Shown one piece after another: positions 21,913 to 40,124 of a stretch of DNA of 64,000 bases. This DNA comes from Leptonema illini DSM 21528 (GTDB lineage Bacteria; Spirochaetota; Leptospiria; Leptospirales; Leptonemataceae), in contig NZ_JH597773.1 of NCBI RefSeq assembly GCF_000243335.1, forward strand, positions 1,977,550 through 2,041,549, written 5' to 3'. The translations under genes were made by a program, and so were the position numbers. Numbering within the stretch: position 1 is the first letter of the stretch; every line of letters starts with the position of its first letter. Below the pieces are notes generated by a model, which saw nothing but the letters and a program-made list of their open reading frames with translations, had not been told where the DNA came from and made no database searches.

Positions 21913-21996
21913 GCCCAGGTGGCGGAATTGGTATACGCGCTAGTTTCAGGTACTAGTGGGAGCAATCTCGTGGAGGTTCAAGTCCTCTCCTGGGCA
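21913..21996 (+). tRNA. tRNA-Leu (CAG anticodon)
   Basis: This is a class II tRNA of 84 bases without encoded CCA. The acceptor stem GCCCAGG pairs with CCTGGGC, and the discriminator is A. The anticodon arm is CTAGT-TTCAGGT-ACTAG, giving anticodon CAG. A long variable arm (GGGAGCAATCTCGTG region) is typical of leucine tRNA, and the T arm contains GTTCAAGTC. It reads CUG codons. Its tail and downstream terminator are partly repeated at 34.1-34.2 kb, which makes it a likely integration landmark. Confidence 0.93.
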
Positions 21997-22006
21997 CATC
22001 GCCATC
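21992..22006. repeat. Left copy of island-flanking direct repeat
   Basis: GGGCACATCGCCATC, spanning the last bases of tRNA-Leu and the first bases after it, recurs exactly at 34135-34149. In both places it is followed within about 20-25 bases by an almost identical terminator and the same CGTTTGGGGGGG tail. The 12-kb defence island lies between, so this is the candidate left attachment site. No integrase gene is present. Confidence 0.6.
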
Positions 22007-22026
22007 ATAAACTCAGTCAACCAAAA

Positions 22027-22046
22027 GCCCCGGAAGGGGCTTTTTT
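22027..22046 (+). terminator. Intrinsic terminator after tRNA-Leu
   Basis: GCCCC (22027-22031), loop GGAA, GGGGC (22036-22040), then six T residues. On the opposite strand the same stem is followed by TTTTGG, so it may also stop readthrough from hsdR. The sequence AGCCCCGNAAGGGGCTTTTTT with the CGTTTGGGGGGG tail recurs at 34170. Confidence 0.9.
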
Positions 22047-22121
22047 CGTTTGGGGGGGATGGGTGGGGCGCGGGAGGAGGCCTGGAGTATTAAGCGATTG
22101 CTGGATGGCGGCCGCAATAAT

Positions 22122-25019
22122 TCACCCGACCATCCCATTCATGAATACGTCGACATACTTCTTCATCTTTTCGATGATTCGATTACCGATGCTTCTGGCC
22201 TCGAGAACACTGGGACGGTTTTCCAGACAGTTCAGAACATCCTCCCGGATGGGTTCCTGTTCTGTGAATATGTAGGCATCGAGCAAGGCAGAGAATTGCT
22301 TACGATCCAGATTTTCTTCTTCGCAAATTTGGTTCAATGCGAGGATTTTCTGATCGTGCCAGTATTTCTCGAATTCGTCGGGGATGTTATCAGTTTCGCT
22401 GATAACGGGAAGGTTGGCTTCAATGAACTTCTGTATAAGTTCTCGCTTGCTTCGCATTACCGGATCGTTTCCCATCTGCTCCAGTAATCTCTTCTTCTCT
22501 TTATTCGACTCTCCCTCTTCAGCTTCCTTGATCTTCGCCAGAAGCTTGAGAATATAAGCCACATTGACATCATCTCTGTGAATCAGCTCGAGTTCAAAAT
22601 CCACATCTGCAAGAATCGACACCTTCTCTTTCTCACGGTCGCTCTTTACATGTTCACGTAAGTCCTGATATTTGCTCGCATAGTTGTTGAATGATTGCTC
22701 CGTCATGGGAAGGTCATCCCATGTAAACTCTGTAAAAGACCTGAGAGTATTTCGAATCCGCATCAATTCTCGAAACGCTTTTACAAACGCAAACATGGCC
22801 TCTTCATCGGGCAGATCATTCACACTGTTCGGAGTGGGCACTATTTGAAGCAACGCAGCGAAGGCAGCACTGAAGGCGCGAACGATCTCTTCGTAGGGGG
22901 GAAGAATAATCGTCTCTCTGGCCTCTTTATTCGAAAAAAGGGCGATCGCATCGTCTGTTGCGGCCTTGAGGTTTCGAAAGCAGAGGATGTTTCCGTGGGA
23001 TTTCTTTTCGCCGATCACTCGATTAGTGCGGGAGAAGGCCTGAATGAGGCCATGGTGTTTCAGATTCCTATCGACATATAACGTATTGATCTTTTTTGCA
23101 TCAAAACCCGTAAGATACATGCTCACAACAAGAAGGATATCCAGCCGGTCTTTATCTAAAAAACCTTCCTTCTCTCGATCCTTTAATCGTTTGCTTATAT
23201 TTTTCGTGTAAGCGTCAAACTGCTGGTTGTCTTTTATCGAAAAACTTGTTCCGTAGAGTTGATTGTAGTCAGATACAAATTCTTCCAGTTTATCGCGGGT
23301 ATGCGGTGTATTGTAGGAAAATCCGGCCTCGCTGACCTCCCATGTTTCATCCGGAATCAGCCCGTTTGCATCCTGATCTTCCTCGTTCGCCGAAAATGTA
23401 AAAACGGTAGCAATGCGCAAATCGGTTGCTCCTGCTTTGATCTTCTTTTTGAAGATTTCGTAATACTTGATCAGAACATCGATGCTGGTAATCGCGAATA
23501 TCGCCGAAAACTCTTTGTTGTGTGTTTTTCTGTCATGATTCCGAATGATATAATCAACGATCTTTTCCAGCCGTACCGGCGATTCCAGAACCTCTCTTTT
23601 GTCGATGTCTTCCACCTCAATGTCGATAAAGGTTCGATTGGCCTGTTTATAACGTCCCAGGTACTCGATCTGAAATGGCAGAACATTTCGGTCTCGAATC
23701 GCATCGGTGATCACATATTTATGCAGACATTCGCCGAAGAGATCCTTCGTCGTTCGCATTCCAAATTCATTCTTCTGGAGGTTTTCTGCAAAAATCGGAG
23801 TTCCGGTAAAACCGAATAGTCGGCTCTCATGAAAGAAATCGGTTATATTCTTATGGGTTTGCCCGAACTGGCTACGATGGCATTCGTCGAAGATAAAAAT
23901 AATTCTCTTATCCTGAAGACCTGACATGTCCGTTTTATACCGATCCACAGTGATCGCCCGGTGTAATTTCTGAACCGTCGTTATGATCAGTTTCGGATCT
24001 TTGATTTCGCCCTTCCCGTGCTTGAATCTGCCAAGGAACTGGTCCACAAGCATCTTCGTATTGGCCGAAGCGTCGACGCTTCCTTCGTGAAACCGGTTAA
24101 ACTCCTCCTGCGTCTGATAATCGAGATCCTTACGATCCACGACAAAAACTACTTTGTAGACTTCGGGCAAATCCATAATGATCTGGCTTGTCTTGAATGA
24201 AGTAAGCGTCTTTCCCGATCCCGTCGTATGCCAGATGTAACCGTTCTCACCGCTGCTTTGAACGTGCTTGATGACAGCTTCCGTTGCATGGTATTGGTAC
24301 GGACGAAGGATCATCAATACCTTGAAGGTTTCATTGATAACAATGTAATGAGCGATCATCTTTCCGAGATGATCGGGGCTCAGGAATGCGTCGGCAAAAC
24401 CATGCAGCTCGGTGATGTGACGATTCTGAAAATCGGTCCAGAAGTAGGTCTGCCGTGCATCCTGTTTTCTATTATTCGCAAAGTACTTTGTATTCGCGCC
24501 GTTGCTGATCACGAAGATCTGCACATACTGGAAAAGGCCGTAGCTCGACCAGAAGGAGTGCCTTTGATACCGGTTGACCTGATGAAAGGCTTCTTTCAGT
24601 TCCAGCCCGCGTCGTTTCAGTTCGATCTGCACAAGAGGAAGGCCATTTACGAGAAGCGTCACATCATAGCGATTTTTGTAGCTCCCCTCCATGGAAATCT
24701 GATGCGCCACCTGAAATCGGTTATCCGTCCAGTTTTTCGAATCGAAAAAGCGCAGATAGATGCTTTCGCCGCTCTCGCGGGTTAACTGGAAACGGTCTCG
24801 AAGCGTTTTTGCCTTCTCGAAGACATTGCCCTTTGCGAGATGGCTCAGGACCGCTGCAAACTCTTTCTCAGACAGGGAAACCTGATTGAAGAGTTCAAGC
24901 TGTGTTTTCAGGTTTGCAAGCAGGCTTTCCTCGTTATGGACCTTTGCTTCTTCGTAGCCCAGAGAGCAGAGCTGTTCGATCAGTTTTGTCTCTAATTGTG
25001 CCTCGGACTGCGAACTCAT
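22122..25019 (-). CDS. hsdR: Type I restriction endonuclease, motor/nuclease subunit HsdR
   Basis: HsdR is the ATP-dependent translocase and nuclease of a type I restriction-modification complex, acting with HsdM and HsdS on unmodified foreign DNA. The length, 965 residues, is within the usual range. The N-terminal PD-(D/E)xK nuclease domain shows YDVTLLVNGLPLVQIELKRRG (Asp119, Glu133, Lys135). The helicase core follows: HTTGSGKT (Walker A, 264-271), FIFDECHRSQFG (DECH, 378-381), FGFTGTPIF, and later YLTGFDAKKINTLYVDRNL and LIQAFSRTNR. A helical C-terminal region probably docks on HsdM. The ATG overlaps the rhuM stop by four bases. It is the last gene of the seven-gene minus-strand run that begins with hsdM. 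Confidence 0.95.
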   Translation of the reverse strand: MSSQSEAQLETKLIEQLCSLGYEEAKVHNEESLLANLKTQLELFNQVSLSEKEFAAVLSHLAKGNVFEKAKTLRDRFQLTRESGESIYLRFFDSKNWTDNRFQVAHQISMEGSYKNRYDVTLLVNGLPLVQIELKRRGLELKEAFHQVNRYQRHSFWSSYGLFQYVQIFVISNGANTKYFANNRKQDARQTYFWTDFQNRHITELHGFADAFLSPDHLGKMIAHYIVINETFKVLMILRPYQYHATEAVIKHVQSSGENGYIWHTTGSGKTLTSFKTSQIIMDLPEVYKVVFVVDRKDLDYQTQEEFNRFHEGSVDASANTKMLVDQFLGRFKHGKGEIKDPKLIITTVQKLHRAITVDRYKTDMSGLQDKRIIFIFDECHRSQFGQTHKNITDFFHESRLFGFTGTPIFAENLQKNEFGMRTTKDLFGECLHKYVITDAIRDRNVLPFQIEYLGRYKQANRTFIDIEVEDIDKREVLESPVRLEKIVDYIIRNHDRKTHNKEFSAIFAITSIDVLIKYYEIFKKKIKAGATDLRIATVFTFSANEEDQDANGLIPDETWEVSEAGFSYNTPHTRDKLEEFVSDYNQLYGTSFSIKDNQQFDAYTKNISKRLKDREKEGFLDKDRLDILLVVSMYLTGFDAKKINTLYVDRNLKHHGLIQAFSRTNRVIGEKKSHGNILCFRNLKAATDDAIALFSNKEARETIILPPYEEIVRAFSAAFAALLQIVPTPNSVNDLPDEEAMFAFVKAFRELMRIRNTLRSFTEFTWDDLPMTEQSFNNYASKYQDLREHVKSDREKEKVSILADVDFELELIHRDDVNVAYILKLLAKIKEAEEGESNKEKKRLLEQMGNDPVMRSKRELIQKFIEANLPVISETDNIPDEFEKYWHDQKILALNQICEEENLDRKQFSALLDAYIFTEQEPIREDVLNCLENRPSVLEARSIGNRIIEKMKKYVDVFMNGMVG

Positions 25020-26014
25020 TTTTCTTCAATCTCTTTTATCATTTTATCGAAGTCCGATTCAAACTGTCTATCTTGAATTACCCGAAATTTCTCAAATTCG
25101 CTCTCGGCAAAATCCTTTGCTATGCGGGCCGTAATCTTGCCGCTATCTTTCAAAACTTCCCGTTCATCGAACTCAAGAAATGCGTCGAGGCGCGAAGCCC
25201 AGTCCTCCATCGTCATGGGGATCTTTCTCCTCGCCCTTTCTTCGGCAAGATCCAGATAGGCACCGACGATTCGTCCGAGGGATTCCAGTTCTTCTTTAGA
25301 CAGATAGTTTTTAGCGATGGATACGTCGGACTTGAGGATTTTGCCATCCGGCGCCCCTGCCCATGACGTGAGACCCATGTTCTTCTTTTTGCTGTCGGCT
25401 CGATCCTTGATTAGCTCTGCTGCCGTTTGCCCATGAATGGCGAAATGCAGCTTGTTCTGGACTTTTGCAAAGAAATCCCGGGTCGTTGAAGCATTCCTGT
25501 CGTAGTCAACGCTGGTTGCATAAATATCGGTGATCTTCTGGTAAAAACGGCGCTCCGAGAGTCTGATTTCCCGGATCTCTTCCAGAAGTTTCTCAAAGTA
25601 GTCCTCTCCAAGAAAAGTCCCGTTCTCCATACGCTGCCGGTCCAGAACATAGCCTTTGATGGCAAATTCTTTTAGAATGGAGGTAGCCCACTGCCGGAAT
25701 TGAGTGGCTCGCTTTGAATTGACCCGGTAGCCGACCCCTATGATCACATCCAGAGAGTAGAAATTTGTCGGTTTGGTAGAAAATTCGGAAATTCCGAATT
25801 TTCTCATGGTCTCTTTCTCCGTCAGCTCTTCCGTTTCGTAGATATTTTTGATGTGCTCATTGATCGTAGAGGGTGCCTTCTCAAAAAGCGCAGCCATGGC
25901 CTTCTGGGTGAGCCAGACCGTCTCGCCCTCCACACGCACCTCGATGCCGTCTTCTCCCTGCTGTGCGGTGAAGATCAGGAATTCGGCAGTTGAGTTTCGG
26001 ATAAGTTTTTTCAT
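25016..26014 (-). CDS. rhuM: RhuM-family protein
   Basis: This 332-residue protein belongs to the RhuM (virulence-associated, Fic/DOC-neighbour) family, which is very often found inside restriction and defence loci. The conserved N-terminal region is VRVEGETVWLTQKAMAALFE, then STINEHIKNIYETEEL and RKFGISEF, followed by the family core FYSLDVIIGVGYRVNSKRATQFRQWAT. The C-terminal half is helical and charged. The molecular activity is not established; the N-terminus looks DNA-binding. The stop overlaps the hsdR start (ATGA), so rhuM and hsdR are coupled. A gap of 105 bases without features separates it from gajB. Confidence 0.88.
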   Translation of the reverse strand: MKKLIRNSTAEFLIFTAQQGEDGIEVRVEGETVWLTQKAMAALFEKAPSTINEHIKNIYETEELTEKETMRKFGISEFSTKPTNFYSLDVIIGVGYRVNSKRATQFRQWATSILKEFAIKGYVLDRQRMENGTFLGEDYFEKLLEEIREIRLSERRFYQKITDIYATSVDYDRNASTTRDFFAKVQNKLHFAIHGQTAAELIKDRADSKKKNMGLTSWAGAPDGKILKSDVSIAKNYLSKEELESLGRIVGAYLDLAEERARRKIPMTMEDWASRLDAFLEFDEREVLKDSGKITARIAKDFAESEFEKFRVIQDRQFESDFDKMIKEIEEK

Positions 26015-26119: not shown

Positions 26120-27877
26120 TTATTGTTCAAACGGATCGCCTATTACATTCCTCGTTTCAAATATCTTTTGAATCATGGAAAGTGCTTTCTGTGACAATTC
26201 CTGGGTAAAGAGCAGAGTTAAATTATGCTTTGCTCTTGAACAACTGACATAAAACAGATTACGATTGCGCTCGAACGTTTCCCGCTTGTCGGCCGGATAT
26301 CCATCGCTCATCCATTCGAGCATTTGATTCCAATTATATTGATTCCAACCTCGTCCAAATACAACCAGCACATTATCAAACTCGGCCCCTTTCACACCGT
26401 GCTTGGTCGAAAAAGGCGTTTTTTCGTCAATATACTCATGAAGGTTTATAACTTCCCGATATTTAACAGTTCTGATTGATCGGATCTTTTCTAAAAATCT
26501 CTTCTCCTCTTCGGAATGACTATCAGCGGCGCCGTCACTTAATAGATTGAATTTTCTTTCCGATTCTTCTACTTTTGCTGACGCTCTGGGTGTTTTGGAT
26601 TCTAATAACAGATCCAGCACCTCACCTATAGACCCGGTATTCCTTAATTCCATTAACCGATTCAAGTTGTCGGTCCATATTTTTTTGTCACGTTGAGATT
26701 GAAGGCTGGGATGATTCTTGTTGCCAATCTGGAATAACTCGCCATATTCACGACGCTCGAATGCTGAAGCTGTTGGCTCAATAATATCAATAAAGAACTG
26801 AATATATTTATCGCCTTTTTTTAAGTAGTCGTCTGGATAAGGAAAACAATCAGCAAGGTTCTTGAAATTCTGCTCAGTCGCAATGAGGTTATTCGTAAGG
26901 AAGAGTATTTTTGTTTTTGTGGGCGACATATCCCATCCATCTGCTACCATTAACTCTTTAACTTTTTCAATGTGCTCTTTTGCATTTGCGGTTGGTAGAT
27001 CGCCGGTCCAATGACCTCCCCCCCGCCTTGTACCGACCCATAAATTAGAGTGAAAGATTCTTACTGCTCCCTGAGATTGCGGATTTGATTCCGCTTGTGG
27101 TAGTTCAGGGCGCATCCGATTGAGGCAAGCAACAATATTTTTGTCTGACCTGAAGTTGGCTTTCTTACCTATCTCAACGATCTTTCCTGCCTTACTGGAA
27201 ATCAGCCCACATGCCGCAGAACCATAGATTTTCTGCCAATGATCACCAAATAAACCAATAATTACACCAGACTCGTTATCTACAAGATTAGTAACGACGC
27301 TCTCTGCCAGATGGACATCAGTGTCTTGATATTCATCGATTAAGATTATAGGAAATTTACTCTTTACGAGTTTCTGAAACTTAGGATAGGAAAGTATGCG
27401 CGCCATCAAGAAAACCACATCATCATGGTGGAGAGAGATTTCCCTATTGTTAATTCTGGGATACCCCAAATCATATTTAACAATCTGTTCTGCAATCCCA
27501 CCCGCTTCCTTGATCCGTTCTTCCCATCTTTCTCCAAGACTAGGAAGCAGCTCTCTCAACTTGATTTGATAATTCTGCAAGATACTCCAGCAAAACGCAT
27601 GAATCGTATCAGCAAAAATAACCGGATGATGGTCCGTTCTATCTTTAATTTCGTCTTTTGCCACATTCGTATAAGTAATGCAGGCAATTTGTTGCTCGTT
27701 TAATAGAAATTCACTAGCTCGCTGCTCTATAAGATACTTAATCGTCTCTATCAGAGAGTATGTTTTTCCAGCCCCTGCTCCCGCCTCAAGGCGAAAACAC
27801 TGGTTATTATCGATGCAAGATCTTAGTTGTTTTAAGGCTTCGATGGAAGCTTGCTCTGCTGGGCTTTGACGGGTCAT
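26120..27877 (-). CDS. gajB: Gabija GajB, UvrD/PcrA-like helicase
   Basis: GajB is the helicase-like partner of the Gabija anti-phage system. It is thought to sense DNA ends produced during phage replication and to assist GajA. The superfamily-1 motifs are visible in 585 residues: LEAGAGAGKTYSL (Walker A, about 32-39), ACITYTNVAKDEI (motif Ia), IILIDEYQDTDVHL (motif II, 181-185), GLFGDHWQKIYG (motif III) and YVSCSRAKHNLTLLF (motif VI). The first ATG (27877) overlaps the gajA stop by four bases. The DNA is visibly more AT-rich than the flanking core genes. The neighbouring OLD/TOPRIM gene makes Gabija far more likely than a housekeeping UvrD. Confidence 0.9.
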   Translation of the reverse strand: MTRQSPAEQASIEALKQLRSCIDNNQCFRLEAGAGAGKTYSLIETIKYLIEQRASEFLLNEQQIACITYTNVAKDEIKDRTDHHPVIFADTIHAFCWSILQNYQIKLRELLPSLGERWEERIKEAGGIAEQIVKYDLGYPRINNREISLHHDDVVFLMARILSYPKFQKLVKSKFPIILIDEYQDTDVHLAESVVTNLVDNESGVIIGLFGDHWQKIYGSAACGLISSKAGKIVEIGKKANFRSDKNIVACLNRMRPELPQAESNPQSQGAVRIFHSNLWVGTRRGGGHWTGDLPTANAKEHIEKVKELMVADGWDMSPTKTKILFLTNNLIATEQNFKNLADCFPYPDDYLKKGDKYIQFFIDIIEPTASAFERREYGELFQIGNKNHPSLQSQRDKKIWTDNLNRLMELRNTGSIGEVLDLLLESKTPRASAKVEESERKFNLLSDGAADSHSEEEKRFLEKIRSIRTVKYREVINLHEYIDEKTPFSTKHGVKGAEFDNVLVVFGRGWNQYNWNQMLEWMSDGYPADKRETFERNRNLFYVSCSRAKHNLTLLFTQELSQKALSMIQKIFETRNVIGDPFEQ

Positions 27878-29880
27878 TCTTTCCCCTCCCCGACAACGAC
27901 TTCTTCATCAGTATCAAGCCATTTAAGCCCTTCTGCGATATATTTTGGTACAGTCCAATCCGTTTTGTCGACCGAATACTCAATCGCAAAATTTGCTTTG
28001 CTTGATTTCCCTATTTCTTGCGCTTTCTCAAAAACGGCTTTCTCTAATTCCTTACCTTTCAAACGACTCAAATCAAAGACATCAGCATTTGCCAACATGA
28101 AAGCATCTTCGAAACTTCGCCCGCAAACTCCTCCCTTTTTCTCCGGGATTTGATAAGCGATGCGCCGGTATCCAACAACCCTTGCCTTTTCGTCGTATGC
28201 CAGAATTTTCTTGAGATCGCCATATCCATCAATCCCATACCATTTGGAAATGCCTGCATTGCTTGAGTCAGTGCCTTCACCGACACTTGAAGCAGTATAG
28301 GTTGTTCTCTTACCCTCGGTAGTTTTTCGTACCGAATCTAAATCGGTAATAAATAGCGTTTTAAGCTCAAGAAAGTCTATAAACTTATAGAAATGATGAG
28401 CAAAAGCACCCCCAATCTCAACAACCGATAAATACTTCCGCCTCAGTTTGGTAGCCTGAGTTTCATCCACCTTACGAATAATCTCTGGTAAAATGATTCG
28501 TTCCGTTGGTCCTTCGATTAAGATGGCTCTGTCTGCAAAATAAAGATCACACTTTGTAAGTGTTAAGTACTTATGCAGGAACTCTTTATCATCTTTGACA
28601 TCGTCTTCTTTGAATGCTGCCCCGAGATCCTTCACTCTGGTTTCCTTGCCATGCTTAGACAAAAAGTATCGGACTTTTCTGAAATCCGCTTCATTCGCAA
28701 TATGTGATGAGTGGGTACTGACCACAAACTGTACCGGCCAGATTTTTCCATCATTGAGCTGTTGTTGAAATTCTTGGACAATTTGATCGAGCTGACGAAT
28801 GAAAACTTCCTGCATTTGTGGATGCAAATGTGCTTCGGGCTCTTCAATAAAGATTAAATGGCCTTTAGGTGGTGTAGTCTGGGACTGGAATTCACGAAAA
28901 TATTCATAAATACGGAACAGAATAAAAATAAGATTTCGTATACCCAGGCCATTATAGGTTTCTGGCAAAGTGAAGTAGTCTTCTCCTTGATAAAAGACCT
29001 TGGTATTGCTCTCCAACAAAGATTTGACATTGAGTTCGGTTACGGCATTGAGATTGGGATCCTGTAGGCCTGGATAACCAAAAATACTTAGAGCAGGCAA
29101 AAGAGCTTTCACCTTCTCTTGAAAATCAGTATCAACTTTTTCTTGTAGCTCTTCTGCAACCCTTCGAACTTCTTCAGATTTTTCCTTAAACTCCGCGGTG
29201 GCCCCGGAGCTATTCGCACTGTTAAATATTTTTCCAAGGGATTTTCCAAGCACATCGCGTTCACTGTGCGTTTCGTCATCCAAACCCCGCTGGGCATTGA
29301 TAAGACCGGACAAAATTAGCTTTTTGAACTTCGAAAAATCGAGTCTGACTCTGTTTTCAGAATTGGTCGGTTCAATTGCGTAAATTACAGCTTCAAAGTG
29401 CTGATTAATCAGTGCTTTTAAATCCGAAAAGTATTTGCGTCTATTCTCTACGCTTAAAGGCTGAAAAAAATCTTTGATTTTTCCATCTTTAAGCTGATAG
29501 GCTACCAAAACCTTGGTTTCAAATAGTGTTTCATCGAGATCTATGATGAACTCACCCAAAACTCCGTACTCATCTTTATCATTCGTATAATCCAGTAACA
29601 ATTCCAATTCAATAGTTGGAATCAGCTTCCGTATCTCGGCTTCAGATTTTTCTTCTTTGAACGCAGCCAGCCCGTTTTCAAAACCGCATAGACACGTCTG
29701 GGTAAAGTCTTCGTAACGTAATTTGGGTCCGGATGGCCCTAAAAAACTTCGGAAAATCTCTGCCAATGATGTTTTGCCTGAGTTGTTTCGGCCAACGATT
29801 ACTGTTGTTCTTTCATCAAAAGTAAGCGTTAGATTTTTTAATAATCTGTAATTCTTGATTCTAGCACTTTTTATGAGCAT
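27874..29880 (-). CDS. gajA: Gabija GajA, OLD-family ATPase-TOPRIM nuclease
   Basis: GajA is a sequence-specific DNA-nicking endonuclease whose ATPase domain inhibits the nuclease while nucleotide levels are normal. The 668-residue protein has an ABC-like ATPase domain with IVGRNNSGKTSLAE (Walker A, about 30-37) and HLIFIEEPEAHLHPQMQEVF (Walker B/D-loop, around 341-360), followed by STHSSHI. A C-terminal TOPRIM nuclease domain has AILIEGPTERIILPE (Glu456) and LFITDLDSVRK (Asp513, Asp515), so both activities look intact. This architecture next to a UvrD-like helicase defines class 2 OLD nucleases, that is Gabija. It begins 42 bases after hsdS on the same strand. AT-rich composition suggests recent acquisition. 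Confidence 0.92.
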   Translation of the reverse strand: MLIKSARIKNYRLLKNLTLTFDERTTVIVGRNNSGKTSLAEIFRSFLGPSGPKLRYEDFTQTCLCGFENGLAAFKEEKSEAEIRKLIPTIELELLLDYTNDKDEYGVLGEFIIDLDETLFETKVLVAYQLKDGKIKDFFQPLSVENRRKYFSDLKALINQHFEAVIYAIEPTNSENRVRLDFSKFKKLILSGLINAQRGLDDETHSERDVLGKSLGKIFNSANSSGATAEFKEKSEEVRRVAEELQEKVDTDFQEKVKALLPALSIFGYPGLQDPNLNAVTELNVKSLLESNTKVFYQGEDYFTLPETYNGLGIRNLIFILFRIYEYFREFQSQTTPPKGHLIFIEEPEAHLHPQMQEVFIRQLDQIVQEFQQQLNDGKIWPVQFVVSTHSSHIANEADFRKVRYFLSKHGKETRVKDLGAAFKEDDVKDDKEFLHKYLTLTKCDLYFADRAILIEGPTERIILPEIIRKVDETQATKLRRKYLSVVEIGGAFAHHFYKFIDFLELKTLFITDLDSVRKTTEGKRTTYTASSVGEGTDSSNAGISKWYGIDGYGDLKKILAYDEKARVVGYRRIAYQIPEKKGGVCGRSFEDAFMLANADVFDLSRLKGKELEKAVFEKAQEIGKSSKANFAIEYSVDKTDWTVPKYIAEGLKWLDTDEEVVVGEGKE

Positions 29881-29922: not shown

Positions 29923-31104
29923 CTATGCGAACATCTGCTGTAGCAGCCCTTTCTTAAATTCCCGACTCTTTTCGATTTGCGCGGCAACCTTCTCAATCTT
30001 CGCATCCAACGCAGACAGAAAGTCGGCAATCTTCTGCTGTTCGGGGAGAGAGGGGAGATTGAGCTTAAATCCAAGAATGTCGCTCCTCGATAATCCAGGG
30101 ATCATATTGCCTGAAGCAAGCGCTTCAAAGCTATTCTTATGTAATAACAAAAATTGATACAGCATTACTGTTATTGCATTAACTGGACGAATAGCCATCA
30201 GTTGACGACCAATTGCCACTTTTTCAATACCCAATTGAAGCAAAGTCCCGACACCACTTCCCTTAACGGTTATTAAAATATCACCCTTGACTCCTGCATT
30301 CTTACAATTTCCAGTCCATTTAGCGACTGCCTGATCATGATTTGTGAAGTCAGAAGGACCAGAGAAGTAAGGTATTCCAAATCGTTTTGATCCGTATTGT
30401 TCTGGAGATAAATGTAGCCCTGAAATCAACTCCGCCACCTCCCCCAACCGCTGCTCCTCCCATTTCGGATAACTCTTCCCATTCTCATCCTTGAACCGGA
30501 GCTTCTGCGAAAAGATCTTCTGCATCACCCCTTTCTTGTATTCTTCCAGCAGGGCCTTCCTTCGAGCCAGTTGCTCGATCTTCCGGTCCACCGCAGAGAG
30601 AAAGTCGGCGATCTTTTGCTGTTCAGGGAGGGAGGGGACGTGGAGCTTGATCGCTGCAAAATCTTTGAAGTACAACCTCAATCTGTCACTTGTCAGGCCA
30701 TAGGAATATGAAGTGAATAAATACAGGCTTCGCTTTCGGGCGAACATTTGGACAAAAAAATCTGTGTTTACTCCCTCGTCGGGAACAAGTGCAACGTAAG
30801 CCGGGCTGACCATGCAATCCTGCATGGCGAGTCCGAATGCCCCCTGCCACATTCGCATCATGTTGTAGACAATGTCACCGGCCTTAACTCCAAGGTTATC
30901 GCCTGCTTCAGCAACATCATCCATCTTTCGGTCCAGAGAGTTCCTTGGAACGAGCCCTCTATCCATGGTAACAGAATAGATCGGTAAAGTTTCATTCCCC
31001 TTTTCGCGTCTATTCTGAAATAATTCTTTTCCTTTCTTCTCTTTCCACTGCCCTCGAAACTCGGGAAATCGTAAACATGGTGTGTTTTTCGTTGGTTTTG
31101 TCAT
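29923..31104 (-). CDS. hsdS: Type I specificity subunit HsdS
   Basis: HsdS chooses the bipartite DNA target of the type I system. It has two target-recognition domains (about residues 1-155 and 205-345), each followed by a conserved helical spacer. The spacers are near-copies: VPSLPEQQKIADFLSAVDRK near residue 157 and LPSLPEQQKIADFLSALDAK near residue 350. Such duplication allows domain exchange and specificity switching. The TRD sequences are AT-rich and do not resemble each other, so the site is asymmetric and cannot be predicted by eye. The ATG overlaps the stop of the PIN-like gene by four bases. Confidence 0.94.
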   Translation of the reverse strand: MTKPTKNTPCLRFPEFRGQWKEKKGKELFQNRREKGNETLPIYSVTMDRGLVPRNSLDRKMDDVAEAGDNLGVKAGDIVYNMMRMWQGAFGLAMQDCMVSPAYVALVPDEGVNTDFFVQMFARKRSLYLFTSYSYGLTSDRLRLYFKDFAAIKLHVPSLPEQQKIADFLSAVDRKIEQLARRKALLEEYKKGVMQKIFSQKLRFKDENGKSYPKWEEQRLGEVAELISGLHLSPEQYGSKRFGIPYFSGPSDFTNHDQAVAKWTGNCKNAGVKGDILITVKGSGVGTLLQLGIEKVAIGRQLMAIRPVNAITVMLYQFLLLHKNSFEALASGNMIPGLSRSDILGFKLNLPSLPEQQKIADFLSALDAKIEKVAAQIEKSREFKKGLLQQMFA

Positions 31105-32198
31105 AGTTTATTACCGATAGAAACTCCAGCTTCAACGAGCATGTCCTTAAACTCCCGGAAGCTGATCAACTTTGACTTTTCGGCTTTGAATAATTGCCTA
31201 CCCTTATCAACTATAAGAGCATCTGTCACATACAGGCTTACATAAGGTAAATATGTGATATTCAAGAAATCTATTCCGTCACTGATTCTTGGAATCGCCT
31301 CACTTTCGCGAATGCTTTCAGAGAGCTGCTTCAGCATATTATATCCCGGAAACAGCTCAATTGGAACTAATAGCAATTGTTCGACAAACTTATCTAAGCT
31401 GATAGAGCGATAATCAAATGCAGCGTATGTGTTTTTTAGAAAACGTAGATGGATGGGCAGATAAGTTGCCTCGCCGACATCCAGTTTCAACAATTCCGAT
31501 AGCGGTATCCCAGCCTCCTGAACCAGATTATCAACAAATCCAATTATGATGTTGCGTGGGTCGTTATCTCGCAATCGAGCTATCAATCGGCTGATATTCT
31601 CGATGGCCACATCTTGATGCCTCTCTCCTCTTTTAAGAAACCCTTTTGCGGAATTTTCCAGCGCGGCAGGAAAATCTGCGACAGTCTCCTGCTTTCTTGA
31701 CAGCATATCATTTATTACACTACCAAGTTTAACTTTTTGAATTTCCAGGGAGTATTGTCGAGATGCCTTCTGGAAGTGCTCATGCCCATATGTTGCGATA
31801 GCTTTTTCTCGCAACATTCTGGAATTATTTGTGTATTCCTGCTTATATTTTTCCCTGTTATCATCCGAGAGAATAAACACAGCATCTCTCAGCATTTTAT
31901 CCCGATCTACTTTATGATCTCGAAATACAAAATTTATCTCCTCATGGACAATCGCCAGAGGTGAAAAGTTGGAAAAACCGTATCCTTCTATTATCGCCCA
32001 TAAATCATCGAAATCATCAGTCCTGCTGGTTTGAAACAGTTCCATGAGCAAATGAGAATGCAAAACGGGCAGATATTCCTGTTGTGCTAACCATTGAACT
32101 ACGGATTTTCGGAATTCTGTATCTCTGGACATTTGAATCCATACCATTGTATCCAAAAATACAAAGTTCCTACCATTACAGTTGCAATCGGTGTTCAT
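31101..32198 (-). CDS. Large PIN-like nuclease candidate between hsdM and hsdS
   Basis: This 365-residue protein is of a type I cannot place in a named family. The N-terminus NFVFLDTMVWIQMSRD (Asp16) followed by LPVLHSHLLMELFQTSR (Glu53) is a PIN-like nuclease opening. The C-terminal IDFLNITYLPYVSLYVTDAL (Asp326) with a following VDKGRQL would supply the remaining acidic site, so the catalytic residues are split by about 250 residues of mostly helical sequence. PIN nucleases usually cut RNA. The gene lies between hsdM and hsdS in the same direction, with GAGGGA before its ATG, and overlaps hsdS by four bases. It is therefore an integral part of the operon. By analogy only, its position recalls PrrC, the tRNA nuclease guarded by a type I system. 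Confidence 0.7.
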   Translation of the reverse strand: MNTDCNCNGRNFVFLDTMVWIQMSRDTEFRKSVVQWLAQQEYLPVLHSHLLMELFQTSRTDDFDDLWAIIEGYGFSNFSPLAIVHEEINFVFRDHKVDRDKMLRDAVFILSDDNREKYKQEYTNNSRMLREKAIATYGHEHFQKASRQYSLEIQKVKLGSVINDMLSRKQETVADFPAALENSAKGFLKRGERHQDVAIENISRLIARLRDNDPRNIIIGFVDNLVQEAGIPLSELLKLDVGEATYLPIHLRFLKNTYAAFDYRSISLDKFVEQLLLVPIELFPGYNMLKQLSESIRESEAIPRISDGIDFLNITYLPYVSLYVTDALIVDKGRQLFKAEKSKLISFREFKDMLVEAGVSIGNKL

Positions 32199-32242: not shown

Positions 32243-33805
32243 CTAAAACGGCGTCTCAATCCCCAGCTCTTTGCAGTAAGCGGCAATCTCCGTGTCCGTC
32301 TTTGCCATCTCTTTATCCAGAGATTTCAGTTCCTTTGAAATCGCCTTCAGATCGATAGGCTCTTCCTCTTCGAAGGTATCCACATACCGGGGAATATTCA
32401 GGTTATAATCGTTTTCCCGAATCTCATCGATGGAGGCGAGATAGCTGTATTTCTCTTCGACTTTTCGTTCCCGAAAGGTCGTAACGATCTTTTCTACGTC
32501 TTCGGGCCGAAGCTGGTTTTGATTCTTCACCTTCTCGAAGTGCCGGCTTGCATCGATGAAAAGGATATGGTCCGGATCACTTCGCTTTTTCTTTAACACC
32601 AGGATACATGTGGGAATCCCCGTTCCGTAAAAGATATTCGGAGGAAGGCCGATGATGGCATCGATATAGTTCTTTTCCTCAATCAAGTACTGGCGGATAT
32701 GCCCCTCCGAGCTTCCACGAAAAAGCACTCCATGCGGCAGAACAATGGCCATAATTCCATTGGTATCGAGCTGATAGATCATATGCTGTACAAAGGCGAA
32801 GTCGGCCTTTGTGGCCGGCGCCAGCTTTCCATAGGGAGCAAAACGGTCGTCATTCATGAAAAGAGGGCTGGCACTCCAGTGAGCAGAGAAAGGCGGATTG
32901 GCGACGACCGCTTCAAATTGTTGATCGATATGATGCGGGTGTTCAAGGGTATCGTCATTCTTTATGTCGAACTTACGATAATGAACTCCATGCATGATCA
33001 TATTCATGCGGGCAAGGTTATAGGTCGTCGGATTACTCTCCTGACCGTAAAAGGCGCCGACCTCTTTCACCTCTTTTGCAACACGAAGAAGTAGCGAGCC
33101 GGAGCCGCAGGTCGGGTCATAGACGCTCTTCAACTTCTTCTTTCCCGAAGAAACGATCTTTGCGAGGATTGTGCTGACGGATTGTGGAGTATAGAACTCC
33201 CCTGCCTTTTTCCCCGCTCCACTTGCGAACTGACCGATCAGATATTCGTAAGCATCGCCGAGAACGTCATTCGTTACGTTATCCAGTTGGAAATCGATCT
33301 TGTTAAGATGGCTGAGAACCTTAACGATCAGTTCATTCTTTGCGTTTTCCGTTCGGCCCAGCTTGCTGCTTGTCAGATCCAGATCTTCAAAGAGGTTTTC
33401 GAAATCCTCCTCGCTCTCAGCTCCCCGCGTGCTCTGCTGGATATTGCTCAGCACTTTTGTAAGATCGCCGAGGATGAAATTCTCTTTCCCTTCTTCTGGC
33501 TGCCCCTTTCGGGCAAGTTCAGCAAAAAGTTCAGAGGGTTTTAGAAAATAGCCGAGGGTTTCAATGGCTTCATCTTTGATGGCTTCAAGATATTTTTTCC
33601 CCTTCGAGGAGTTTTCATCGATCTCCTGGTATTTCAGGCCATCCGGTTTCAGGATGTGATCGGCATAGGCATGCATTTTTTCGCTGAGATATTTGTAGAA
33701 GATGAATCCGAGAATATAGTCCCGGAACTCATCGGCTCCCATTTTGCCGCGAAGGGTATTGGCGATGTTCCAGAGTTGTTGCTGAAGAATCTGTTTGTCT
33801 GTCAT
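32243..33805 (-). CDS. hsdM: Type I DNA methyltransferase subunit HsdM
   Basis: HsdM transfers a methyl group from S-adenosylmethionine to adenine within the site selected by HsdS. The N-terminal helical domain (LWNIANTLRGKMGADEFRDY, FIFYKYLSEKM) is followed by the N6-adenine methylase core: FYTPQSVSTILAKIV, SVYDPTCGSGSLLLRVA (SAM-binding motif I, DPTCGSGS) and VVANPPFSAHW (catalytic NPPF). A C-terminal helical tail interacts with HsdS. The length of 520 residues is typical. It is the first gene of the minus-strand defence operon, and the promoter should lie in the structured, gene-free stretch from 33806 to about 34130. Confidence 0.96.
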   Translation of the reverse strand: MTDKQILQQQLWNIANTLRGKMGADEFRDYILGFIFYKYLSEKMHAYADHILKPDGLKYQEIDENSSKGKKYLEAIKDEAIETLGYFLKPSELFAELARKGQPEEGKENFILGDLTKVLSNIQQSTRGAESEEDFENLFEDLDLTSSKLGRTENAKNELIVKVLSHLNKIDFQLDNVTNDVLGDAYEYLIGQFASGAGKKAGEFYTPQSVSTILAKIVSSGKKKLKSVYDPTCGSGSLLLRVAKEVKEVGAFYGQESNPTTYNLARMNMIMHGVHYRKFDIKNDDTLEHPHHIDQQFEAVVANPPFSAHWSASPLFMNDDRFAPYGKLAPATKADFAFVQHMIYQLDTNGIMAIVLPHGVLFRGSSEGHIRQYLIEEKNYIDAIIGLPPNIFYGTGIPTCILVLKKKRSDPDHILFIDASRHFEKVKNQNQLRPEDVEKIVTTFRERKVEEKYSYLASIDEIRENDYNLNIPRYVDTFEEEEPIDLKAISKELKSLDKEMAKTDTEIAAYCKELGIETPF

Positions 33806-34134: not shown

Positions 34135-34149
34135 GGGCACATCGCCATC
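34135..34149. repeat. Right copy of island-flanking direct repeat
   Basis: GGGCACATCGCCATC, identical to the tail of the tRNA-Leu region at 21992-22006. It is followed by the same style of terminator and CGTTTGGGGGGG tail, and then by a loosely similar GC-rich stretch. It is the candidate right boundary of the defence island. Confidence 0.6.
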
Positions 34150-34170
34150 TTACTGACCGGAATTCAAGAA

Positions 34171-34190
34171 GCCCCGCAAGGGGCTTTTTT
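34171..34190 (+). terminator. Intrinsic terminator, near-copy of the tRNA-Leu terminator
   Basis: GCCCC-GCAA-GGGGC followed by TTTTTT. It has no gene of its own immediately upstream on this strand, which supports the view that it was duplicated together with the tRNA-Leu tail. Confidence 0.85.
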
Positions 34191-34448
34191 CGTTTGGGGG
34201 GGCGCGCGGGGTGGATCGGGTGGCAGGAGTATGAGGAGGCCACTGCATGGGCTCAGGGAAAGAGTTGACAGCTTTTCGGTATCTGATCAAATTAATACAG
34301 GGACATGCTTTTTCGCTTCAACGCTTACCTTCATACTCTGGCAGGTCCTTGATGCCCATATATCAGTTCGATTTTCAAGGCTGCGGTCGCTTTCACAATG
34401 AATGCAGGAATAACCCTTTCGCTGAGCTTCGGCAAGGAGGTAACGACA

Positions 34449-34788: not shown

Positions 34789-35235
34789 ATGAAGGTCTAT
34801 CTGGACAACTGCTGTTTCAATCGACCTTACGACGATCAGTCAGACTGGAAGATACGCGTTGAAACAGAGGCCAAACAGGGAATCCAGGATCTCATCAAGG
34901 CCGGGCAAATCAGCCTTGCATGGTCCTATATACTCGACTTTGAGAATTCTAAGAACCCTAATCCCGACCGGCGCTCTTCCATAAGGACATGGAAGACGAT
35001 CGCCGTCCAGTATATCAGAGAATCGGCCGCTCTACTCGAAGAAATGGATCGACTGGTCAATCTGGGCATCAAGCCGCTGGATGCCCTGCATGTGGCCTGT
35101 GCCATCTCAGCCGAGTGCACCCATTTCATTACGACCGATAACGGCATTCTGAAAAAATCTTCGCTAATATCCGGTATTTCCATCGTCGATCCCGTTGACT
35201 TTATTAGAGGCTATAAACATGAAATCGGACGCTGA
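34789..35235 (+). CDS. PIN-domain toxin (LDNCCFNRP family)
   Basis: This 148-residue PIN-domain ribonuclease is the predicted toxin of a TA pair. It opens with MKVYLDNCCFNRPYDDQ (Asp6), which is a widespread distinctive subgroup of PIN proteins. The other acidic positions are in SYILDFENSKNP, KPLDALHVACAISA and HFITTDNGILKKSS, so the four-acid catalytic centre is complete. The antitoxin gene follows rather than precedes it, overlapping the toxin's end by 17 bases, which is an inverted order relative to classic vapBC. The preceding 176 bases contain a CCCCA-GCTT-TGGGG hairpin at 34659-34672 but no clear promoter. Confidence 0.85.
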   Translation: MKVYLDNCCFNRPYDDQSDWKIRVETEAKQGIQDLIKAGQISLAWSYILDFENSKNPNPDRRSSIRTWKTIAVQYIRESAALLEEMDRLVNLGIKPLDALHVACAISAECTHFITTDNGILKKSSLISGISIVDPVDFIRGYKHEIGR

Positions 35236-36443: not shown

Positions 36444-36562
36444 AATCAGGATAGACCAATTTCTGTCGGTAGTAAAGTCGGTTCTCATTTCCTTCCTGGT
36501 TCTCCACAATACCTGTTCCCGAGCACGCGGATGGCCTTTGAATATCAAACCGGAATCTGCGC

Positions 36563-36591
36563 TTGACACACGTAATCTGCCGCGTTATTCT
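36563..36591 (+). promoter_or_regulatory. Promoter of the 36.6-kb TA operon, leaderless layout
   Basis: TTGACA (36563-36568), a 17-base spacer, TATTCT (36586-36591), then six bases to the ATG at 36598. Transcription would begin at or beside the start codon, leaving no room for a ribosome site, and none is present. The same spacing from TTGACA to ATG (35 bases) occurs at the 39.5-kb TA operon. Confidence 0.68.
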
Positions 36592-36597
36592 ATACGT

Positions 36598-36849
36598 ATG
36601 CAAACCAAACTGACGCTCTCTATCGAGAAAGAAGTCATCCAGAAGGCTAAGCGCTATGCGCAAAAGCGTCAGGAAAGCATATCGTCTCTTGTTGAGGCCT
36701 ACTTCCGGGCATTGACTTCTGAAGACGCAGAAAAGTCCGACGAAATTCCCCCCATCACGAGGGAGCTGGCCGGCACACTGGAGGGGGTTCAGATTGATAC
36801 ATGGAAAAACGAACGCATGGATAGGTTGACGAGGAAGCATCTACGATGA
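36598..36849 (+). CDS. Antitoxin of a PIN-type TA pair
   Basis: This 83-residue protein starts MQTKLTLSIEKEVIQKAKRY, followed by RQESISSLVEAYFRAL, the pattern of DUF6364/ribbon-helix-helix-like VapB antitoxins. The C-terminal tail (PPITRELAGTLEG, then a basic end) would wrap the toxin. I use the ATG at 36598 because the promoter elements end six bases before it. A longer frame from 36538 would run through the promoter. The stop overlaps the toxin start by four bases (ATGA). The mRNA looks leaderless. Confidence 0.85.
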   Translation: MQTKLTLSIEKEVIQKAKRYAQKRQESISSLVEAYFRALTSEDAEKSDEIPPITRELAGTLEGVQIDTWKNERMDRLTRKHLR

Positions 36850-37280
36850 ACGAAAAGACGCCCGCCATCTTTTTAGATACGGACGTTATCCTTGATCTGC
36901 TCTTGAAAAGAGAGCCTCACTTTATATCGGCAAGGACTCTATTTGCCAGAATTGAAACAGGCCAGATTCAAGGCTTCACTTCAGCACTCGTTCTCTGGAA
37001 TATCTACTACCTTGTGGAGAAGTATGCTTCTCGAAAAATTGCGCGAGCGAGAGTGGCGAAGCTGCGCATTTTGCTGTCGATTCTCCCCGTTGATGATCGG
37101 ATCATTGAACAGGCCCTTCAATCGGACATCAAAGATTTCGAGGATGCGGTTCAACTTTTCGCGGCCCGATCACAGGGCATCCAGACTTTAATCACACGCA
37201 ATAAGAAAGACTACCCTAAAGCTGAGATTCAAGTCATGACACCCCGCGAATTTCTGGAAACGCTCTACTCCGCCGGGTAG
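36846..37280 (+). CDS. PIN-domain toxin
   Basis: This 144-residue PIN ribonuclease has AIFLDTDVILDLLLKREPHF (Asp11, Asp13) at the N-terminus, then the substrate-side segment FTSALVLWNIYYLVEKY, SDIKDFEDAVQLFAAR for the third acidic site, and TLITRNKKDYPKAEIQVMTP for the last. RNA cleavage is expected and the target is unknown. It is translationally coupled to the antitoxin. The 3' end overlaps the 3' end of the convergent GH5 gene by 16 bases, so the two transcripts would be antisense there. Confidence 0.88.
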   Translation: MNEKTPAIFLDTDVILDLLLKREPHFISARTLFARIETGQIQGFTSALVLWNIYYLVEKYASRKIARARVAKLRILLSILPVDDRIIEQALQSDIKDFEDAVQLFAARSQGIQTLITRNKKDYPKAEIQVMTPREFLETLYSAG

Positions 37281-39340: not shown

Positions 39341-39481
39341 GAGTGTCTCCTCAGAGCCGACCGCAAGCCCGTTTGAACGAGGCTGATTCCGGCCGTGCCC
39401 TGTGATTTATTTGTTTGAGACACCTGAAGCATGAGGATCGACATTTGTCGACTATTTTTCCCGAAGTCCCACACCCCTTTG

Positions 39482-39510
39482 TTGACACACACTGCATTGT
39501 GTGGTTCTCT
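39482..39510 (+). promoter_or_regulatory. Promoter/operator of the 39.5-kb vapBC-like operon, leaderless layout
   Basis: TTGACA (39482-39487), a 17-base spacer, TTCTCT (39505-39510, a weak -10), then six bases to the ATG at 39517. The spacer is filled by CACAC-TGCATT-GTGTG (39488-39503), a perfect 5-bp dyad that is a natural operator for VapBC autoregulation. No ribosome site precedes the ATG. Confidence 0.6.
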
Positions 39511-39516
39511 GTGTAT

Positions 39517-39717
39517 ATGGCCACAAATCTCTCCATTGACGAAAAGCTACTCGATGAAGCAAAGGAGCTCGGTCGGTTCAAAACGAAGCGTGAGACCGTG
39601 AATATGGCGCTTCAGGAATTTATTCAGCGCAGGAGGCAGTTGGAAGTCCTGTCTCTTTACGACTCAATCGACTACAACGCCGATTACAATTACAAGGCAG
39701 AGCGAAAGAAAAGGTAA
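39517..39717 (+). CDS. vapB: VapB-type antitoxin
   Basis: This 66-residue antitoxin reads MATNLSIDEKLLDEAKELG, then FKTKRETVNMALQEFIQRRR, the standard VapB (DUF2191) N-terminal DNA-binding and dimerisation region, with a C-terminal tyrosine- and lysine-rich tail for toxin binding. The ATG at 39517 is chosen because the promoter and operator lie immediately upstream. The longer frame from 39415 passes through them. The stop and the toxin ATG share one base (TAATG). Confidence 0.9.
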   Translation: MATNLSIDEKLLDEAKELGRFKTKRETVNMALQEFIQRRRQLEVLSLYDSIDYNADYNYKAERKKR

Positions 39718-40124
39718 TGCAGGTACTGGTCGACACAAGCGTCTGGTCTGAATTCCTCAGACGAAAGGCGATGCATTCAAGCGAAATCCGCAACACGCTG
39801 AAGGCCCTGATCGAGCACAAGCGCCTGCTTTTGATCGGGCCGGTTCGACAGGAGTTACTTTCAGGAGTCAGAACAGCGGATCAGTTCCTTGAACTCCGCC
39901 ATAAGCTGAGGGCATTTCCCGATCTTCCTATCTCAACAGAAGACTATGAGACGGCAGCAGAATACTTCAATCGATGCCGATCAGACGGCATCCAGGGCTC
40001 TTTTACCGATTTCTTGATCTGTGCCGTCGCTAATAACCATCGGGCCTTGATATACACAACTGACGGAGACTTCCAGCACTTCAGCAGGGTTCTGCCTGTA
40101 TCGCTTTTCAGGCCTGAAGAATAG
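39717..40124 (+). CDS. vapC: VapC-type PIN ribonuclease toxin
   Basis: This 135-residue PIN-domain toxin has MQVLVDTSVWSEFLRR (Asp6) at the N-terminus, GPVRQELLSGVR (Glu), SFTDFLICAVANNH (Asp) and LIYTTDGDFQHFSR (Asp), so the full acidic centre of an active VapC is present. VapC toxins cut initiator tRNA or the sarcin-ricin loop of 23S rRNA. Which applies here is not known. It is coupled to vapB by a one-base overlap. No terminator is obvious in the 100-base gap before the next gene. Confidence 0.92.
   Translation: MQVLVDTSVWSEFLRRKAMHSSEIRNTLKALIEHKRLLLIGPVRQELLSGVRTADQFLELRHKLRAFPDLPISTEDYETAAEYFNRCRSDGIQGSFTDFLICAVANNHRALIYTTDGDFQHFSRVLPVSLFRPEE

Follow-up and report, generated by a model that had tools for sequence, protein, structure and literature searches.

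Toxins were proposed by Makarova et al. (2012) to reside within restriction-modification (RM) and related defence operons, including PIN RNases in ter-type operons (PMC3506569), and it is established that type I RM operons can harbour embedded defence genes (PMC11411939, PMC12255303, PMC2610378), RloC being one gene found in such a position (PMC2610378). In PrrC/EcoprrI, a type I RM enzyme keeps a tRNA-Lys anticodon nuclease silent. Here, we analyse X, a 365-residue protein encoded between hsdM and hsdS of Leptonema illini DSM 21528, in a window of 64,000 nucleotides (contig NZ_JH597773.1, positions 1,977,550 to 2,041,549). Since embedded genes are established and toxins of RM operons have already been proposed, X is a new protein at a type of location that is already recognised.

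Like PrrC, X lies inside a type I hsd operon and is a proposed RNA-level back-up to restriction. Unlike PrrC, which combines an ABC ATPase with a HEPN-type nuclease, X is PIN-like, is placed between hsdM and hsdS, and has no conserved linkage to them. Its sequence lacks both a Walker A motif and the PrrC Arg-X3-Glu...His triad, ruling out PrrC as a relative, and the HEPN RNase motif R-X4-6-H has no match in it either. As cargo between hsd genes, X resembles RloC, DarTG2 of the RRDM island, TgvAB, and the PDC/HEC candidates of PADLOC (PMC2610378, PMC12255303, PMC11411939), but it belongs to none of these families, having no PADLOC match. DarTG2 lies between hsdS and hsdR, whereas X lies between hsdM and hsdS, and, unlike the other embedded cargo compared, X shares its operon with a complete Gabija system.

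Among PIN proteins, the VapC-type toxins (PF01850) share with X an N-terminal strand-D-helix-strand-helix-E arrangement in register. X differs from VapC in being about three times longer, in having an unrecognisable C-terminal half, and in scoring below the Pfam cut-off, and from VapBC modules in having no small antitoxin gene directly upstream. A large PIN_8/PIN_12-type protein (L099, 410 aa) reads from its sequence as having a long helical insert that parts the N-terminal D and E from the C-terminal acidic half, as proposed for X; the insert of X is longer, and PIN_8 and PIN_12, tried as parent families, do not match it.

The operon and its island

The genes run hsdM-X-hsdS-gajA-gajB-rhuM-hsdR, all on the minus strand, in an operon longer than the preliminary description had reported. 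HMM matches bear out its identification of the neighbours of X as a type I methylase and a specificity subunit. The features of the operon and its surroundings are as follows.

32243..33805, minus strand: hsdM, type I methylase, 520 aa (Pfam PF02384, 2e-113)
31101..32198, minus strand: X, 365-aa orphan ORF with a PIN-like N-terminal half (ORF call, profile matches)
29923..31104, minus strand: hsdS, specificity subunit, 393 aa, starting within the X stop (ATGA) (Pfam HMM match)
27874..29880, minus strand: gajA, Gabija OLD-family nuclease/ATPase (PADLOC GajA, 1.2e-269)
26120..27877, minus strand: gajB, Gabija UvrD-like helicase (PADLOC GajB, 2.6e-256)
25016..26014, minus strand: rhuM, PADLOC candidate PDC-S05 (Pfam RhuM, PADLOC PDC-S05)
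22122..25019, minus strand: hsdR, restriction subunit, 965 aa (restriction-helicase sequence, position, matches to HsdR-like ORFs of related loci)
21913..21997, plus strand: tRNA-Leu(CAG), insertion site of the island (tRNA gene, synteny in relatives)
21992..22058, plus strand: direct repeat copy 1, tRNA 3' end and terminator (exact blocks 21992-22006 and 22034-22058)
34135..34202, plus strand: direct repeat copy 2, upstream of hsdM (exact blocks 34135-34149 and 34178-34202)

At the junctions there are 44 nt between hsdM and the co-directional X, 42 nt between hsdS and gajA, 4-nt overlaps at gajA/gajB and rhuM/hsdR, and about 105 nt between gajB and rhuM. Scans for promoters and terminators returned numbers at about chance level, and a single transcript for the whole operon is likely. 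X is thus a co-directional ORF between the hsd genes of an intact operon, that is, an embedded gene. The Gabija system, with both gajA and gajB (26120-29880), is itself embedded between hsdS and rhuM-hsdR.

The operon occupies a low-GC island of roughly 12 kb, where GC content is 0.41-0.48 (22 to 34 kb of the window), down from about 0.56. The end of hsdR lies 124 bp from the 3' end of tRNA-Leu(CAG) (position 21997), and several other members of the family likewise have hisB beside this tRNA-Leu in their genomes, yet no hsdR follows. Flanking the operon on both sides is an approximately 67-bp direct repeat, consisting of exact blocks of 15 bp, which include the last tRNA bases, and 25 bp, whose starts are 42 bp apart in one copy and 43 bp in the other. 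With up to three mismatches allowed, the 22-bp core of the repeat has only these two copies in the 4.52-Mb genome. Because of the tRNA-Leu, the drop in GC, the genome-unique repeats, and the hisB-tRNA synteny without hsdR in relatives, the whole hsdR-hsdM operon looks like a cassette acquired at the tRNA 3' end. Within the island we saw no integrase, and the repeats bracketing the operon point to a tRNA-targeted, integrase-less defence cassette.

PIN proteins also occur elsewhere in this genome, which holds 16 matches to PF01850. Two antitoxin-PIN toxin pairs lie within 4 kb (36538-37280, DUF6364 with PIN_3; 39415-40124, VapB with PIN), and near the island edge a PIN-like ORF of 148 aa (34789-35235), with a C-terminal PIN match only, has no obvious antitoxin listed alongside.

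Gene X and its resemblance to PIN proteins

X is a real gene without a recognised family. Its 365 codons run uninterrupted from an ATG on the minus strand, the plus strand being stop-rich there, and the codon-position GC of 0.50/0.31/0.40 is typical of a coding gene. The ribosome site and the four-base overlap with hsdS that had been described earlier are both present, the former as a plausible Shine-Dalgarno stretch, GGTGAGGGA-ATG, and the latter as an X stop and hsdS start sharing CTATGAC (ATGA). No antitoxin gene adjoins X, given that hsdM ends 44 nt upstream and only the overlapping hsdS lies downstream.

Searches for homologues spanned several collections. Exact 8-mer patterns from the whole protein and from its N-terminal and C-terminal pieces, a scan that detects close relatives only, found no relative in 84,980 species genomes and viral contigs, and tblastn found none in plasmids (E up to 10) or phages (E up to 1). 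The same holds for 1,883 whole-genome searches (some genomes searched twice), a sample of fewer than 1,900 genomes from the phylum of the window and from those of four loci: L010 (Bacteroidetes), L011 (Thiomicrorhabdus), L048 (Nostoc), and L069 (Acidobacteria). Weak matches (E about 0.001-0.05) were set aside because, read by eye, they resemble unrelated or housekeeping proteins (a methyltransferase, RuvA, and AlaRS among them), and the whole protein gave zero matches in Pfam, PADLOC, PHROGs, and PDB. Absence from collections short of full protein databases means that X is rare or fast-evolving, not that it is unique.

The preliminary description had proposed a PIN active site in two halves, formed by Asp16 and Glu53 on one side and Asp326 on the other. 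All three residues are at the positions given.

32007..32162, minus strand: X residues 13-64, the stretch matching PIN profiles in register (profile alignment)
32151..32153, minus strand: Asp16 codon, candidate catalytic acid 1 (sequence, PIN profile alignment)
32040..32042, minus strand: Glu53 codon, candidate catalytic acid 2 (sequence, PIN profile alignment)
31221..31223, minus strand: Asp326 codon, in YVTDA (sequence; catalytic role without profile support)

Against NCBIfam, whole X has a single match, VapC (E 0.076, residues 14-81), and against Pfam, PIN ranks first for the N-terminal 95 residues (E 0.05, residues 13-55 on profile positions 1-42). Both fall below the curated cut-offs, at 14.6 bits at best against 23.6 for PF01850 and 13.1 against 80 for the NCBIfam VapC model, and shuffled controls give E-values for unrelated families similar to the library-wide 0.05-0.1 of these matches. 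Because of these controls, we built a custom profile from 18 PIN proteins, 14 from the same genome and four from related genomes, to which residues 13-64 of X align with 13.5 bits, compared with 6.1 for the best of 3000 shuffles. Only one of 5344 natural 95-residue stretches tops X (14.2 bits), and it reads as the C-terminus of a PIN protein; the next reaches 10.3. The N-terminal half of a PIN domain (beta-D-alpha-beta-alpha-E) is therefore recognisable in X, with D16 and E53 aligned to the catalytic D and E of the profile.

The C-terminal half fares differently. It scores -1.5 to 0.3 bits, although one genuine PIN protein also reaches only -0.2 when left out of the profile, and T325-D326 (VTDA) misses the T-x-D spacing of other PIN proteins by one residue; from sequence, D307/D310 could be an alternative third acid. 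Of the two-half site, the N-terminal part with D16 and E53 in register is thus supported, whereas the part assigned to D326 does not find support in the profile. Structure prediction adds little, as AlphaFold has no usable model of X because no homologues were found: the whole protein, modelled without an alignment, reaches a pLDDT of 37 and is unusable, and the N-terminal fragment, at 67, has no PIN structure among the Foldseek matches listed. The best viral match, the unnamed protein A0A516LBZ8 (355 aa, probability 0.66, E 0.58), was set aside as too weak for use.

The reading we prefer, for which the balance is about even, is that X is accessory defence cargo in a type I operon of the acquired island, a divergent PIN-fold nuclease forming a second layer beside restriction and Gabija. 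We infer a complete PIN fold, nuclease activity, an RNA substrate, and an anti-phage role with its trigger. X would encode a metal-dependent enzyme, an RNase being likelier than a DNase, in which a long helical insert would split the two halves of the fold, and it may act through dormancy or abortive RNA cleavage.

Alternatively, X would not be a PIN nuclease at all, its N-terminal likeness being superficial, and would represent a largely helical protein of some other type, such as an HsdM/HsdS modulator or a sensor of phage proteins. The absence of a C-terminal PIN half from the profile scores, the lack of a PIN among the Foldseek matches listed, and the weak library E-values all speak for this, but the N-terminal score exceeds every shuffle and all but one of the natural stretches, and the genuine PIN protein that likewise misses the C-terminal profile comes from this same genome, so that we regard a non-PIN protein as rather unlikely.

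Linkage to hsd genes, composition, and role

X had been described as a fixed part of the modification unit, with a search for other hsdM-X-hsdS loci suggested as a check. Across 80 related loci, with HsdM 63-79% identical, X is present in none (0/80), nor does it occur in any other genome searched; a pattern search for PIN-like ORFs in these RM loci also found none resembling X. In 59 of the 80, the hsdS start lies no more than 250 nt from hsdM, 15 carry other ORFs between the two genes, and six have no hsdS. The intervening ORFs include RhuM and, by sequence reading, Fic-like, KilA-N-like, and DUF1016-like proteins. The hsdM-hsdS junction thus reads as a site of varying cargo and not as a conserved hsdM-X-hsdS unit.

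Codon composition likewise speaks against a fixed part. GC3 is 0.40 in X, 0.38 in GajA, and 0.39 in GajB, against 0.50 in hsdS and 0.55-0.57 in hsdM, hsdR, and rhuM; X differs from the last three with z = -4.5 to -4.8 and from hsdS with z = -2.7, while the comparison with GajA and GajB (z = 0.7 and 0.3) shows no difference. Given the similarly low GC3 of X and Gabija relative to the RM genes, both are probably later additions onto an RM backbone.

These data bear on a PrrC-like guard, in which X would be an RNase held latent on HsdM/HsdS and freed once the enzyme is inhibited by an anti-restriction protein of a phage. PrrC is an established case of this principle, which has also been proposed for RM-linked toxins generally (PMC3506569), and the location between hsdM and hsdS, with ATGA coupling to hsdS, would give matched synthesis. 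An HsdM/HsdS latch is attractive because X has no adjacent antitoxin, and position is what it rests on. However, the association is not conserved among the related HsdM loci, X has neither the ATPase sensor nor the nuclease triad of PrrC, and its composition suggests an entry into the operon separate from that of hsdM and hsdR, which makes a guard improbable. The bolder version, in which X is the first member of a new family of large PIN RNases, latched by HsdM/HsdS and firing on restriction inhibition as an ATPase-free counterpart of PrrC, strikes us as more doubtful still.

X might instead function with Gabija, or have arrived with it, and not with the RM system, as its placement in one GC3 class with GajA and GajB, apart from HsdM, HsdR, and RhuM, would suggest. 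Against this, hsdS separates X from gajA, different donors can give equal composition, and Gabija works as GajA and GajB alone; a Gabija partner is accordingly a long shot. Finally, a chance or decayed ORF without function, to which the lack of homologues across the collections searched could be ascribed, is scarcely credible for 365 unbroken codons with coding-type codon-position GC, a ribosome site, and start/stop coupling within an intact operon.

If X is a nuclease, as in the preferred reading of a divergent PIN-fold second layer, a PIN-type effector without a known relative joins the proteins embedded in type I operons, and three or four defence layers, Gabija included, stand in one gene row of a 12-kb tRNA-adjacent cassette. 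It would then offer a simple test case of whether embedded genes are tied functionally to the restriction enzyme or are passengers.

Other genes of this operon appear in the related loci as well. RhuM (PDC-S05) is present again in the type I RM loci L018, where it lies between hsdM and hsdS, and L033 and L035, where it follows hsdS, and distant GajA/GajB-like ORFs are found in only one of the 80, L064.
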